Positions 3,414 through 9,514 of a stretch of 38,667 bases of DNA are shown here, one piece after another. Location: NCBI GenBank assembly GCA_913051785.1, contig CAJXCK010000010.1, forward strand, positions 1-38,667, given 5' to 3'. The position numbers and the translations under genes are program-made. The notes under the pieces are model-generated. The model saw only the letters and a list, made by a program, of their open reading frames with translations. It had not been told where the DNA came from and searched no databases. Each line of letters begins with the position of its first letter. Positions within the stretch are counted from its first letter, which is position 1. The DNA is from an uncultured Gammaproteobacteria bacterium. Lineage in GTDB: Bacteria; Pseudomonadota; Gammaproteobacteria; Pseudomonadales; Azotimanducaceae.

Positions 3414-4463
3414 TCAGATACTCTCTGTAAAGTTGTGGAGTGCTTCGATGTTCCAACGAGGCGTGGTTTTGATTTCCAGCGATAGATCGCGCTCTTGTTT
3501 TTGACCAGACATCCTAAGTGCCCCGGCATGAGCAATCATGGCTCCATTATCGGTGCAGAACTCTGGTGAAGCATAGTAAATGGTGGCGCTAAGTTCGTTT
3601 TCTAAATACTTTCGTAGATGTTGATTTGCGCTGACTCCACCCGCGATAACTAAGTGATCGATCCCTGTTTCTTTCAGGGCGCGCTCACATTTGATTTTTA
3701 ACGTCTCAACCACGGCATCTTCGAAGGCGAGAGAGATGTCCTCTATGTCTTTGTCGCTCAGAGTTCCGCATTCCTTTATGGTATTTTGAGCGAAAGTTTT
3801 GAGTCCGCTGAAGCTCAAGTTTAGCCCTGGCCGATCAGTCATTGGCCTTGGAAATCTAAATCGGGCTGGCGCCCCACTCGACAATTTTTGTCGTGCCGCA
3901 CTTGCAGCCGCAGCGATTTGTGGGCCTCCTGGATAACCCAGGCCAAGTATTTTGGCCGTTTTATCAAAAGCTTCTCCAGCAGCGTCATCCACTGACTCAC
4001 CCATTAATTCATACTCCCCGAGAGCTTTCACATTCACTATTTGGGTGTGGCCGCCAGACACCAAGAGAGCGACGAACGGAAACGGCGGAGGTTTCTTCTC
4101 CATCATTGGGGCAAGGAGGTGGGCCTCCATGTGATTAATGGAAAGCGAAGGTATTTGCAAAGACAGAGCCAGAGTTTTTGCGAATGTTGCTCCGATTAGC
4201 AGTGCGCCCATTAGTCCCGGACCGGACGTATAAGCGATGCCTTGTAGATCGGTTAATTTTTTCTGATTATTGGCTAGTATCAATTTGGTCAGAGGGCTGA
4301 TCTTTCTAATGTGGTCTCTCGAGGCGAGCTCGGGTACCACCCCACCGTAATCTTTGTGAATGTCGGTTTGGCTATGGAGAACATGGTCTATTAAGCCGTG
4401 TTCACTATCGTAGAGAGCTAGGCCCGTCTCGTCGCAAGATGTCTCGATCCCAAGTATCAGCAT
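3414..4463 (-). CDS. tsaD: tRNA N6-adenosine threonylcarbamoyltransferase TsaD
   Basis: TsaD is the catalytic subunit that places threonylcarbamoyl on A37 of ANN-decoding tRNAs, working with TsaB, TsaC and TsaE. The 349 residues contain GIETSCDET at 5-13, the metal-binding histidines of HMEAH at 111-115, VSGGHTQ at 135-141 and a C-terminal GGVSAN nucleotide-binding loop. The start ATG at 4463 yields the standard [13 protein letters not shown]. It is divergent from rpsU; the 117 bp between them must hold promoters for both. The intron-bearing tRNA at 9162 reads ANN codons and is itself a likely substrate (inference). Confidence 0.97.
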
Positions 4464-5407: not shown

Positions 5408-7102
5408 GTGTCTGGCCTGATCCCTCAAACTTTTATAAATGATCTCATCGAATCGGCGGATATTGTAGAGATCATTGGCAGTAGGCTTGAGCTAAAAAAG
5501 GCCGGTAGGAACTTTCAAGGTTTGTGTCCTTTCCATAACGAAAAAACACCATCCTTCTCCGTAAGTCCTGAAAAACAGTTCTTTCATTGTTTTGGTTGCA
5601 AAGAGAGTGGCACCGTTCTTACGTTTTTGATGAAGTATGAAAATCTTGATTTTGTTGAAGCGATTGAAGCACTGGCAAAGCATCTTGGAAGAGATGTGCC
5701 TAGAGAGAGGGGTAAGCGTGACTCGGCTCCAGAGCAAACTAAAGAGCTGCACGCGCTTGAGTCGGCTGTCCAGATCTTTAAAGATAATCTTCGAAATTCG
5801 AGCGAAGCGATCTCATATCTCAAACGCCGCGGTATCAGCGGTGAGATAGCTAGGGATTTCGGACTGGGTTATGCGCCCGATGAGTGGCAGCATCTATCGT
5901 CAAAATTAGAGAAAGATGGTTTCTCTGCCCAGGTGCTGCTGAATAGTGGATTGACTACGACTAATGACAGAGGTCGGCATTATGATCGATTCAGGGGGAG
6001 GATAACGTTCCCAATTAGGAATATTCGAGGCAAAACGATTGGTTTTGGTGGTCGAGTGTTCCGGGATGGAACACCTAAATATCTGAACTCTCCCGAGACG
6101 AAGCTCTTTTCTAAAAGCAAGGAAGTCTACGGTTTATTCGAAGCTAGGAAAGGAAACCAGCGATTAGACAGGCTCATACTCGTTGAAGGATACATGGACG
6201 TGATCGCCCTAGCGCAGCATGGCATACGAAATGTCGTAGCGACCCTCGGGACAGCCGTAGGGGAAGATCATTTGAGGAAAATGTACAGGTATAGCAGAGA
6301 GATTGTATGTTGTTTCGACGGAGACGAGGCTGGCAGGAGTGCAGCATTCAGAGCTTTAGAGGCAGCTCTGCCCTTTCTTGATGAAAAAAAGCGAATTCAT
6401 TTTATATTTTTGCCTAATGGTGAGGACCCTGATTCTTTTGTGAATAGAAATGGATCTGATAGATTTCTAGAGCTAGTTCAATCTTCGACGCCCGGATTCG
6501 AATATCTGTTCTCGAGTTTAGGGTCAAATTTGGATCTCTCCTTGCTGGATGACAAAGTCGCATTAGCAGGTTTGGCGAGGCCATTGATAGACAGAGTGAA
6601 CTCTAAACTCGCGAGAGATGTTTTGTTGGCTAGATTAGGCGAGCTTACAGGTTTGGACTTATCAAAGCCGCAGCCCCGAGGTGCTTCGAAACCGATCCAA
6701 GTAAGACGTGATTTTTCTCAACCAGTTCAGAAATTATCGGAAAGGCTGGCTGGCATGCTTGTACGGAGACCCGAATTGTTAAAAGTCCTGAGTATCGAGG
6801 ATCGCGATGCTTTGGCCGCTCTTGGAAATGAATCGGATCTTTTTTTTAAGGTTGAGACAATAATCTCACGTGACCCCAATCTGTTGCCTGAGGAGCTGAT
6901 TAGCAGATGGCCTGACGCTGAGGATGTGGATAAGGTTGTCGCTTTGGCTAACTTTGAAGAAGTGCTTGGAGTAGATGAACAAGAGATACAGTTCCTGGAG
7001 GGAGTTGGTCGTTGGCTAGGTTTGCGGGAAGCAAACGCGGAAGTTGAGAGGCTTAAGAAACATATTAACGACCGAGGAGAAGAAGGAACAGTAAATAATT
7101 GA
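5408..7102 (+). CDS. dnaG: DNA primase DnaG
   Basis: DnaG makes the RNA primers for replication. Domains in order: a CHC2 zinc domain with C40, H43, C61 and C64; a catalytic core with the TOPRIM glutamate E260 in LVEGYMDV and the D304/D306 pair in FDGDEAGR; then a C-terminal helicase-binding region from about residue 430. The 564 residues are slightly shorter than the E. coli enzyme (581). The start is GTG at 5408, giving MSGLIPQTFINDL. It lies between yqeY and rpoD as in other gammaproteobacteria. Confidence 0.97.
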   Translation: MSGLIPQTFINDLIESADIVEIIGSRLELKKAGRNFQGLCPFHNEKTPSFSVSPEKQFFHCFGCKESGTVLTFLMKYENLDFVEAIEALAKHLGRDVPRERGKRDSAPEQTKELHALESAVQIFKDNLRNSSEAISYLKRRGISGEIARDFGLGYAPDEWQHLSSKLEKDGFSAQVLLNSGLTTTNDRGRHYDRFRGRITFPIRNIRGKTIGFGGRVFRDGTPKYLNSPETKLFSKSKEVYGLFEARKGNQRLDRLILVEGYMDVIALAQHGIRNVVATLGTAVGEDHLRKMYRYSREIVCCFDGDEAGRSAAFRALEAALPFLDEKKRIHFIFLPNGEDPDSFVNRNGSDRFLELVQSSTPGFEYLFSSLGSNLDLSLLDDKVALAGLARPLIDRVNSKLARDVLLARLGELTGLDLSKPQPRGASKPIQVRRDFSQPVQKLSERLAGMLVRRPELLKVLSIEDRDALAALGNESDLFFKVETIISRDPNLLPEELISRWPDAEDVDKVVALANFEEVLGVDEQEIQFLEGVGRWLGLREANAEVERLKKHINDRGEEGTVNN

Positions 7103-7149: not shown

Positions 7150-7301
7150 CGCTCGCCTCCTAGGAAACGCGAAAAACAGAACATAAGAGTGACACCCCAG
7201 ATCAAAATCCCAGCTGACCTAATGGACGGCCTGTTTTCGTCCAAGGAGCTCTGTTTAGATAATGAAGGCTCAAGGTCCGGTTTTTGAATAATCGAGGAAA
7301 T

Positions 7302-9137
7302 ATGGCTAAAGAAATCGATACAGCGCAACAAGAATCTAGACTGAAGGAGCTCATAGCTAAAGGAAAAGAGCAGGGCTATCTGACTTTTGGCGAAGTTAAC
7401 GATCACTTGCCGGATGAGATATCTGATCCCGAGCAGATCGAAGACATCGTCCGCATGATCAACGACATGGGCATAACGGTCCATGAAACTGCTCCGGACG
7501 CAGATGACCTCCTGACTAACGAGGAGAATACGGCTGATGAGCTTGCTGCAGAGGAGGCCGCTGCGGCGCTCGCTGCAGTAGAAAACGAAGTTGGCAGGAC
7601 GACCGACCCGGTACGAATGTACATGCGCGAAATGGGAACAGTCGAGCTTCTAACAAGGGAAGGCGAGATTGCTATCGCAAAGAGAATAGAAGAAGGTATT
7701 AGGGATGTTCTAAGGGCGTTAGCTTTTTTTCCTGGAACGGTTGATTTTCTGCTGGACTCTTACACTCACTGCGTCAGTGAGGACAAATTGTCTGATCTTC
7801 TTGTTGGGTATCTTGATCCGACAGATGAAGTGCCAGCTGCAACGCAACCTGGAGATGCAGCGCCTGAAATCGACGATGATGATGACGAAGAAGAACAGAA
7901 GGGTCCTGACCCCATAGAGGCGAAGAAAAGGTTTTCGGCACTAAAAAGGAATTACAACAAATACCAAAAAATTCTCGATGAAAAGGGAGCTAATAGTACA
8001 GAACTAATTGATTATGCCCCTAAATTGGCTGAGGCTTACTCGTGTTTCAAATTGACGCCAAAATATTTCGATAAAATGGTAGAGATGGCGAAAGACGCTC
8101 ATGGCCTTTCTAGGAAGCACGAGAGGGCAATAATGTCCGTTGTGGTAAAAGATTGTGGTGTTCCTAGGGATTTATTCAGATCAGAATATTTAGATAAAGA
8201 GCTCAGCGTTACCTGGATAAATAAATTTTCCAAAGCAAAGAAAGACTATTCGGGTAGAATAGAAAAATCTCGTGGAGAGATTGCGCGTCATCAAAAACGT
8301 CTCAAGAACTTGGTCAAAGCATTGGGACTAACGATTAAAGAATTAAAAACGATAAACAGACAGGTATCTCTGGGTGAGGCTAAAGCACGCAGGGCGAAAA
8401 AGGATATGGTGGAAGCCAATCTAAGGTTGGTCATTTCCATTGCCAAGAAATACACAAATAGAGGGCTCCAGTTCTTGGACCTCATCCAGGAAGGGAACAT
8501 AGGCTTGATGAAGGCGGTGGACAAGTTCGAATACCGTCGTGGTTATAAGTTTTCAACCTATGCAACATGGTGGATAAGGCAAGCCATAACTAGGTCGATT
8601 GCTGATCAAGCAAGGACGATCAGAATACCTGTTCATATGATAGAAACTATCAACAAATTGAATCGAATAAGCAGACAAATGCTGCAAGAGATGGGTCGAG
8701 AACCTACTCCCGAGGAGTTGGGAGATAGGATGGAAATGCCGGAAGATAAGGTCCGCCGAGTGTTAAAGATCGCGAAGGAACCTATCTCGATGGAGACCCC
8801 CATTGGTGATGATGAAGATTCGAATTTGGGAGACTTTATTGAAGATCCACAAATCGGCTCCCCAATTGAACTCGCTACTGGAGAAGGGCTTCGAGAGGCG
8901 ACGAAAGATATTTTAGGTGGATTGACAGCTCGCGAAGCAAAAGTTTTGAGGATGCGGTTTGGTATTGATATGAACACTGACCACACTCTAGAGGAGGTTG
9001 GAAAACAGTTTGATGTCACCAGAGAGAGAATTCGACAGATCGAGGCAAAAGCGTTGAGAAAACTGAGACATCCGAGTAGATCTGAGCATCTAAAGAGTTT
9101 TCTGGACGAGACTTCAGAAGGAGGTAAAAATACATAA
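7302..9137 (+). CDS. rpoD: RNA polymerase primary sigma factor RpoD (sigma-70)
   Basis: This is the housekeeping sigma factor. Signs of the family are a region 1.1-like N-terminus, the acidic non-conserved region with an Asp/Glu run near residue 200, region 2 with [20 protein letters not shown] (2.3-2.4, which reads the -10 box), region 3 [13 protein letters not shown], and region 4.2 [20 protein letters not shown], which reads the -35 box. I choose ATG 7302 (611 residues), preceded by GAGGAA, over the TTG at 7284. The tRNA gene starts only 24 bp after the stop, with no visible promoter between them, so both may share a transcript. Confidence 0.97.
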
Positions 9138-9161: not shown

Positions 9162-9514
9162 GGGCCTATAGCTCAGTTGGTTAGAGCAGTGGACTCATCA
9201 AAATGGTGCGCCTGAGCTCGAAAGAGTCAGGATGAACGGGATGAATTCAAGGAAACCTTAGCCTGCGGATGAATATTCGGAGGTTGGCAACCTTGAGCCA
9301 AGCCGGCGGTGCACCGCCGGAAGGTGCAGAGACTACCTGAGGACTGGAGATTGAATCTCTGAGTGTCCTTAATGACAGGCTAGAGCGTCCCGCACCCAAA
9401 CGAAAGATTCTGGAAGGAATCAAGGCGTGGGTGATGAGATAGTCCGCACAACGTTGAAAGACGTTGATTATGTGAATCCATTGGTCCCAGGTTCGAGTCC
9501 TGGTGGGCCCACCA
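9162..9514 (+). tRNA. tRNA with CAT anticodon, probably tRNA-Ile2 (lysidine type), split by a group I intron
   Basis: The exons are 9162-9198 and 9475-9514. Joined, they form a 77-nt cloverleaf: acceptor GGGCCTA with TGGGCCC; D arm GCTC/GAGC; anticodon stem GTGGA with TCCAT; loop CTCATAA with anticodon CAT; T arm CCAGG/CCTGG; and an encoded CCA (9512-9514). The intron lies right after the third anticodon base. I assign isoleucine (AUA codons, C34 modified to lysidine by TilS) because the arms and the ATTGGTC variable region resemble Ile2 more than elongator Met, because the tRNA follows rpoD as in Pseudomonas (memory), and because tRNA-Ile(CAU) carries the intron in Azoarcus. Elongator Met remains possible. 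Confidence 0.9.
9199..9474 (+). ncRNA. Group I self-splicing intron in the tRNA anticodon loop
   Basis: The 276-nt intron folds by eye as a full group I ribozyme. P1 pairs the exon CAT (9196-9198) with guide GTG (9206-9208), with a U-G wobble at the 5' splice site. P2 is 9211-9219/9224-9231 with a GAAA loop. P3 is 9237-9241/9388-9392. P4 is 9247-9252/9291-9296, followed by an AAA joining segment. P5 is 9260-9264/9281-9285. P6 is 9297-9299/9323-9325 with a GC-rich P6a (9303-9309/9314-9320). P7 is GACTA 9331-9335 with TAGTC 9440-9444. P8 is 9393-9397/9429-9433. P9 is 9450-9455/9460-9465 with a GAAA loop. The last base is G9474. Layout and core match the Azoarcus tRNA-Ile intron (IC3 type, about 205 nt, from memory). 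An extra domain sits at 9336-9385. No endonuclease ORF is present. Confidence 0.92.

Follow-up and report, generated by a model that had tools for sequence, protein, structure and literature searches.

A tRNA gene that is cut in two immediately after its CAT anticodon raises three questions: what interrupts it, whether the cell could do without it, and how the interruption came to lie there. Here these are addressed for a locus in an uncultured, probably marine bacterium. Very probably, an intact and active-looking group I intron occupies the only tRNA-Ile(CAU) gene found in this gammaproteobacterium, a relative of HTCC2089 and of the K189A clade; the intron would be removed by splicing, would have been inherited within the genus, and would belong to a kind that has been gained or lost repeatedly.

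Gene anatomy and the group I fold

The tRNA-Ile(CAU) gene lies at positions 9162–9514 (+) of the window, the whole 38,667-nt stretch of DNA analysed here, which comes from a draft genome of 2.37 Mb in 134 contigs (93.45% complete). The 5′ exon (9162–9198, +; bases 1–36 of the tRNA) ends in GACTCAT, with CAT as the anticodon; the intron (9199–9474, +; 276 nt) carries no open frame of note; and the 3′ exon (9475–9514, +) begins AATCC at A37 and runs to an encoded CCA. The exons are placed by the sequence, by the cloverleaf that they form when joined and, at the 3′ exon, by relatives, and the intron by a covariance-model match, covariation and boundaries common to relatives. Upstream on the same strand are dnaG (5408–7102; TIGR01391, 457.9 bits) and rpoD (7284–9137; NF004208, 846.8 bits), whose stop codon lies 24 nt before the tRNA, and a profile match places tsaD at 3414–4463 of the same window. 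Neither a promoter-like site, of the one promoter type sought, nor a terminator-like site for the tRNA was found on its strand between 9000 and 9650. An earlier note on this DNA had described a 276-nt group I intron after base 36 of a CAT tRNA directly behind rpoD; the exact coordinates, the model match and the 24-nt gap agree with that description.

That note had proposed a covariance-model search, with the lack of a match counting against the intron. The group I model RF00028 matched 9187–9466 over its whole length (1–253) with 87.5 bits against a gathering score of 50 (E 3.6e-21), and this is its sole match in the 2.37-Mb draft. The folding energy of tRNA plus intron is −135.5 kcal/mol, compared with −111.2 kcal/mol (s.d. 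6.1) for 100 shuffles, and thus 4.0 s.d. better. For a comparative view, the structure was named by hand on the sequence and its pairs were counted over an alignment of introns from the same tRNA site, comprising 42 of 52 introns (L155, L362, L384 and seven viral introns were left out). Standard pairing is seen in 91.3% of 3,296 cells and two-sided changes in 50 of the 83 named pairs. The covariation score is 0.335 as against 0.125 for shuffled data, with none of 500 shuffles as high, and sliding the partners by 1–3 columns lowers pairing to 35–42%.

All helices that the earlier note had listed, P1 to P9, are present on the + strand, together with the guide GTG on CAT, the GAAA loops of P2 and P9, and the terminal G. 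P1 (9196–9208) pairs the exon CAU and the following CA with UG and the guide GUG (CAUCA/UGGUG) around an AAA loop; its U9198·G9206 pair at the 5′ splice site is U·G in 42 of 42 sequences, and its innermost pair (9200–9204) is formed in just 48.6% of cells. P2 (9211–9231) is paired in 88.3% of cells, with two-sided changes in eight of eight pairs. The P4–P5 domain with its long P5a extension (9247–9296) joins a P4 paired at 99.2% to a weak P5/P5a/P5b helix (68.7% over all rows), two pairs of which fail, in 27 and 28 of the 42 sequences. P6 and P6a (9297–9325) are paired at 100% and 99.0%, P6 being invariant in all 42 sequences and six of seven P6a pairs being changed on both sides.

The P3/P7 pseudoknot of a group I core is likewise in place: P3 (5′ strand 9237–9243, 3′ strand 9386–9392) is paired at 98.8%, and P7, with the guanosine-binding site (5′ strand 9329–9335, 3′ strand 9440–9445, bulged A9330), has all six pairs invariant and 100% paired across the 42 sequences. 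P8 (9393–9433) reaches 87.0%, with six of eight pairs changed on both sides and one pair, 9400–9428, unformed in 33 of 42 sequences. The 3′ end (9446–9474) consists of P9.0 (9446–9447 with 9472–9473), P9 (9449–9466; 95.4% paired) and G9474, which precedes AATCC; P9.0 is paired in all sequences, one of its pairs often changed on one side and the other changed on both sides once.

Between P7 and P3 lies a P7.1/P7.2-type hairpin (9336–9379), a feature absent from the earlier note's description. Its helices are paired at 98.8, 100 and 70.9%, with two-sided changes, the inner stem (70.9%) being its weak spot. A P7.1 hairpin is more typical of subgroup IA.

Identity, position and copy number of the tRNA

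When joined, the exons give a clean 77-nt cloverleaf with a CAU anticodon (ARAGORN), which the program labels tRNA-Met(cat) from the anticodon alone. Three observations argue for tRNA-Ile(CAU) instead, as the earlier note had it. First, the gene occupies an ileX-like place behind rpoD. Second, the joined tRNA is closer to Escherichia coli ileX (62 of 77 aligned columns identical) than to either of the two other CAT tRNAs of its own genome, which we take to be of the elongator-Met and initiator-Met kinds (55 of 81 and 51 of 80 columns identical, respectively). Third, the genome encodes TilS (155 bits; cut-off 93.6).

The place behind rpoD is a usual one for such a gene. In E. coli K-12, ileX follows rpoD at a distance of about 0.7 kb, in the same orientation and separated from it by mug. 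Among 39 loci around rpoD scanned with ARAGORN, 24 have a CAT tRNA behind rpoD, which starts between about 27 nt and 5.2 kb past the RpoD match and lies on the other strand in one case (L032); one locus (L048) has a tRNA-Leu alone near rpoD; and 14 have no tRNA reported by ARAGORN, four of which (L002–L004, L068) hold the split form that the program missed. The nearest named RpoD records are HTCC2089, two K189A-clade assemblies and UBA4421, in keeping with the gammaproteobacterial host that had been proposed. HTCC2089 and both K189A-clade assemblies carry the intron at the same place, and UBA4421 has an uninterrupted tRNA behind rpoD that is identical to the joined exons at 77 of 77 bases. A different arrangement is seen in genus g3 (G260:C5:415987–420130; similar in G1076, G1092 and G1108), where two RpoD-like genes, 38–58% identical to the RpoD of the window and both on the strand opposite tRNA-Ile, flank the intron-bearing gene.

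The weakest rival, a tRNA-Gln(CUG) gene with the intron shifted by two bases, owes its appearance to ARAGORN, which reports no tRNA in the window by default and, with introns allowed (-i), a tRNA-Gln(ctg) with a 276-nt intron at 9162–9514 and likewise at related loci; it can be dismissed with near certainty, as this cut leaves the 5′ splice site with C instead of U and without the U·G pair that 42 of 42 sequences keep, whereas under the CAU reading the exons equal the intronless UBA4421 tRNA in the place that ileX has in E. coli. The default miss and the wrong anticodon in intron mode make an annotation trap for genomes with a split tRNA-Ile(CAU): carrier genomes can seem to lack this tRNA because the program misses or misnames the split gene.

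The position of the gene also bears on the suggestion of the earlier note that intron and tRNA were transferred together. Phages and viral contigs do contain tRNA-Ile(CAU)-like genes, some of them interrupted, which could in principle have arrived as one cassette. Against this, the tRNA stands at its ancestral place behind rpoD, as in E. coli K-12 and 24 of the 39 scanned loci, and an intronless relative has the identical tRNA there. Because of this usual synteny and this identical copy, we rejected joint transfer as unsupported; it is highly improbable.

Might the gene instead be dead, its intron decayed and an intact copy elsewhere in use? An intact tRNA-Ile(CAU) elsewhere had been named in advance as grounds for giving up the interpretation. 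Neither the covariance model nor the tRNA 5′ pattern, which picks up some Met-like tRNAs as well, detected a second tRNA-Ile(CAU) in the draft, and the two other CAT tRNAs look Met-type; the single match to the pattern in this genome is the split gene. That absence is weak on its own, because the 134-contig draft shows few tRNAs (only 24 matches besides the split gene) and may lack an intact copy through incomplete assembly; this counts in favour of a dead gene. In four carriers of the same genus that are 96–99% complete (G039, G179, G200, G1081), the split gene is again the only pattern match, and these genomes therefore back a single tRNA-Ile(CAU). Moreover, the exons are unchanged relative to the intronless gene of UBA4421, the core pairs of the intron are intact, and eight related carriers retain the intron. 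A dead gene is thus very unlikely, and the split gene would be the cell's one source of this tRNA.

For a functional split gene, guanosine-initiated self-splicing is the likely mechanism, judging from the conserved fold. In the folded transcript, the guide GUG would pair with the CAU of the anticodon; cleavage after U36 would come from a guanosine docked in P7; the freed U36 would attack after G9474; and the exons would join to a complete tRNA. Conversion of C34 to lysidine by TilS and modification of A37 by the t6A pathway would be expected to follow splicing, because in the precursor C34 is engaged in P1 and the splice site separates A37 from the anticodon.

Inheritance and movement of the intron

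We scanned 120 genomes of the family to which the window belongs with the tRNA 5′ pattern. Ninety-two matched, and 28 gave no match and have undecided status. A normally needed tRNA, tRNA-Ile(CAU), is split in 33 of the 120, spread over 16 of 37 genera, as judged from a CAT whose next base is not A. In all 33 carriers the last base of the intron is G and a matching 3′ exon comes next, which is no independent evidence for the terminal G since a 3′-terminal G was a condition of the boundary searches. In 28 of the 33 the split gene is the only pattern match; the other five (G260, G1027, G1076, G1092, G1108) have one further match with a Met-like stem, presumably a Met tRNA from that resemblance. 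Two genomes of the same genus as the window, G1098 and G1110, have the tRNA uninterrupted. With other families included, 43 distinct host introns measure 234–367 nt (median 273), and none contains an endonuclease gene, the longest ATG-started sense frame being 77 aa (the maximum also for the 52 introns). Beyond the family, at least 5 of 369 genomes of the class sample matched, a count that is not used as a rate since its pattern, with an extra final G, misses the window's own gene; 2 of 398 genomes of the phylum sample matched, one being the window's own. Plasmids gave 5′-exon matches alone, in seven records.

Several observations fall outside these counts. By eye, L085 (G114) appears to contain a further tRNA-Ile(CAU) intron that the boundary search missed. 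Group I introns also occur in further tRNAs in other genomes of the order, according to ARAGORN, which can misname split genes: in tRNA-Leu(CAA) at L083, L084, L086, L090, L095–L097, L099 and L108, in tRNA-Leu(TAA) at L100, L110, L481 and L482, and in tRNA-Arg(CCT) at L103 and L478–L480. Within the genus, tRNA-Arg(CCT) has a group I intron in G039, G179 and G200 and is uninterrupted in the genome of the window. At L109 (1501–2157; G105), a group I intron match lies in what by eye appears to be 23S rRNA, with an open frame of 138 aa that, again by eye, resembles a LAGLIDADG endonuclease.

Within the genus, several lines of evidence support vertical descent of the intron. First, the RpoD tree, with 74 rows, unites eight carriers in one clade (99/95): five genomes of the genus plus three named records. 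The sister group of this clade consists of UBA4421, G1098 and G1110, all without the intron. Second, the introns of these eight carriers also form one clade (91/88, not starred). Third, intron and RpoD distances within the genus are correlated (Mantel r 0.88, p 0.001). The intron probably dates back to the common ancestor of one subclade of the genus and was passed down by descent from there. The window's own intron sits on a fairly long branch (0.41) and is at most 78% identical to any other.

Across families the picture differs. A history of vertical descent alone, from an ancestral gammaproteobacterium and with numerous losses in place of any transfer, draws support from the correlation of intron and RpoD distances among 38 carriers (Mantel r 0.64, p 0.0002) as well as from that within the genus. 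However, an approximately unbiased (AU) test rejects the introns of the family as one clade (p 0.0045) and likewise the six introns from other families as one clade (p 0.0074); these groups were based on taxonomy and chosen after sight of an earlier intron tree, and the tree behind the tests was built without L155 and without five viral rows of the Azoarcus type. Intron presence on the RpoD tree requires 13 changes of state (12–14 across bootstraps), eight of them forced by starred branches, on a tree that omits the carriers G105, G157, G1024 and G1085 (fragments or no match), scores AG-891-G07 as intronless although its tRNA was unseen, and scores SI074 on a tRNA cut by a contig end behind the anticodon arm. 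The family's introns from G240, G1011, G1009 and G1109 cluster with those of distant families in a mixed clade (92/93) that is not starred, which leaves vertical descent some room; three of the four (G240, G1011, G1109) are related to one another by RpoD, so that few transfers may suffice. On balance, descent without any transfer is unlikely. The old vertical inheritance that the earlier note had offered as the alternative to transfer therefore holds within the genus, where the RpoD and intron clades and the Mantel correlation agree, and seems not to hold across families. Our preferred reading is that this kind of intron was repeatedly gained or lost at the tRNA site across Gammaproteobacteria and that the intron alone appears to have moved between families, the tRNA staying put.

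Introns at the same tRNA site also occur in viruses. Two pattern scans of IMG/VR led to 81 loci, in 18 of which matching tRNA exons flank an intron; a core-motif scan added L296, among the matches listed. At the RF00028 gathering score, L143, L145, L152, L167, L180, L187, L210 and L215 matched, and L162, L165, L175, L189, L195 and L214 gave no match. The core is of the window type, with the extra hairpin, in L143, L145, L152 and L167, and of the Azoarcus type, without it, in VL162, VL187 and VL210. On the intron tree, a starred clade (99/92) takes in 38 of the 39 host introns and leaves the four window-type viral introns outside; the remaining host intron, L155 from another family, falls among viral introns on a long branch.

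Some viral introns contain endonuclease-like frames. L146, L149 and L150 have one 751-nt intron in common (L149, 1351–2101, +), and L296 has one of 773 nt (1941–2713, −). In both L149 and L296 an open frame runs into P7; that of L149 matches HNH_3 (PF13392; E 7.6e-10), and that of L296 resembles it by eye. Four of four tested window-type core motifs are found in L149 and three in L296, and despite these motifs the 751-nt intron of L149 went unrecognised by Rfam up to E 1. Just behind the split tRNA of L167, a free-standing frame matches an HNH endonuclease (phrog_1271) and, at a borderline score, NUMOD3.

Other inserts interrupt viral tRNA(CAT) genes as well. Those of L165, L175, L189, L195 and L214 are 440–631 nt long, end in GTGGTACG or GTGGTAAG and are apparently another intron type at the same site. 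Acinetobacter phages have a tRNA(CAT) 96–97% identical to the exons, and the two exons lie about 744 nt apart in 8 of the 25 phage records that contain both, a count that includes GenBank/RefSeq doubles. In phage AM101 (L153, 1501–2243; record 77436–78178), some 666 nt split the tRNA just after CAT; this insert contains an endonuclease-like frame, whose matches to Phage_endo_I and NUMOD3 stay below the cut-offs, and no group I core was detected in it. In viruses, tRNA(CAT) is thus invaded repeatedly at one spot.

Viral introns, some of them endonuclease-bearing, are a plausible vehicle of intron spread. A more specific proposal, which we regard as possible rather than probable, is that phage-borne tRNA-Ile(CAU) genes served as a shuttle from which an endonuclease-bearing intron passed into the host tRNA. 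The HNH enzyme would cut an intronless tRNA-Ile(CAU) at the 36/37 junction, infection would copy the intron into the host gene, and the endonuclease gene would later be lost, leaving the host lineage with the small ribozyme. If true, this would account for an intron that is frequent yet patchy and crosses families while the tRNA stays behind rpoD. The endonuclease-bearing versions in viral tRNA genes at the same site make the route of spread testable.

Comparison with known systems

The textbook intron at this site is that of Azoarcus, which is about 205 nt long, is inserted after the anticodon and pairs its guide GUG with CAU; to our knowledge, it has no endonuclease gene and no P7.1. The parallel drawn by the earlier note thus extends to the tRNA, the insertion point and the guide, and stops short of closest kinship. 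The intron of the window is longer, at 276 nt, and differs from the Azoarcus type, which we take VL162, VL187 and VL210 to represent, in its core motif (GATGAATTC rather than TGTCAAATTC) and in its P7.1/P7.2-type hairpin, missing from these three; its P7 strands are 104 nt apart, compared with 30–40 nt in the viral introns. On the tree, the Azoarcus-type viral introns split from the window kind (100/100, with a long-branch warning at the join). Judged by these stand-ins, Azoarcus-like descent was rejected on hairpin structure and tree. The intron of Azoarcus sp. BH72 tRNA-Ile is classed as IC3 (Tanner and Cech 1996, cited in PMC4033280), and crystal structures of Azoarcus pre-tRNA-Ile are cited in PMC3984707 (2014).

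According to a 2014 review (PMC4033280), tRNA group I introns are known from cyanobacteria and a few alpha- and beta-proteobacteria. In Gammaproteobacteria, group I introns are reported in two tRNAs of Beggiatoaceae, including Thiomargarita nelsonii (PMC4853749, 2016; citing MacGregor et al. 2013). They resemble the present case as tRNA group I introns of this class that were lost from automatic annotation, and differ in lying in other tRNAs and, in the pertinent passage of that paper, in being left without a structure or type by the authors. Among the open-licence PMC papers listed by searches, no title or abstract opening deals with an intron of gammaproteobacterial tRNA-Ile(CAU). PMC11835236 (2025) presents a database with 42,459 group I introns.

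The introns of cyanobacterial and plastid tRNA-Leu(UAA) and of cyanobacterial tRNA-fMet (Paquin et al. 1997, cited in PMC4033280), in other tRNAs and hosts, likewise lie next to the anticodon and are of the self-splicing group I kind; one is ancestral and the other recently transferred. In the tRNA-Ile(CAU) intron both histories seem to be mixed. As to mobility, spliced HNH-bearing introns have been described in two protein genes of a Shewanella phage (PMC8541194, 2021), and the frames of the viral introns L149 and L296 look like known intron endonucleases for a tRNA anticodon site, in contrast to the 43 host introns, which are without one. The intron in the window is genuine and its kind is known; it departs in structure from the textbook intron of this tRNA site, and its mobile counterpart in viruses is open to test.
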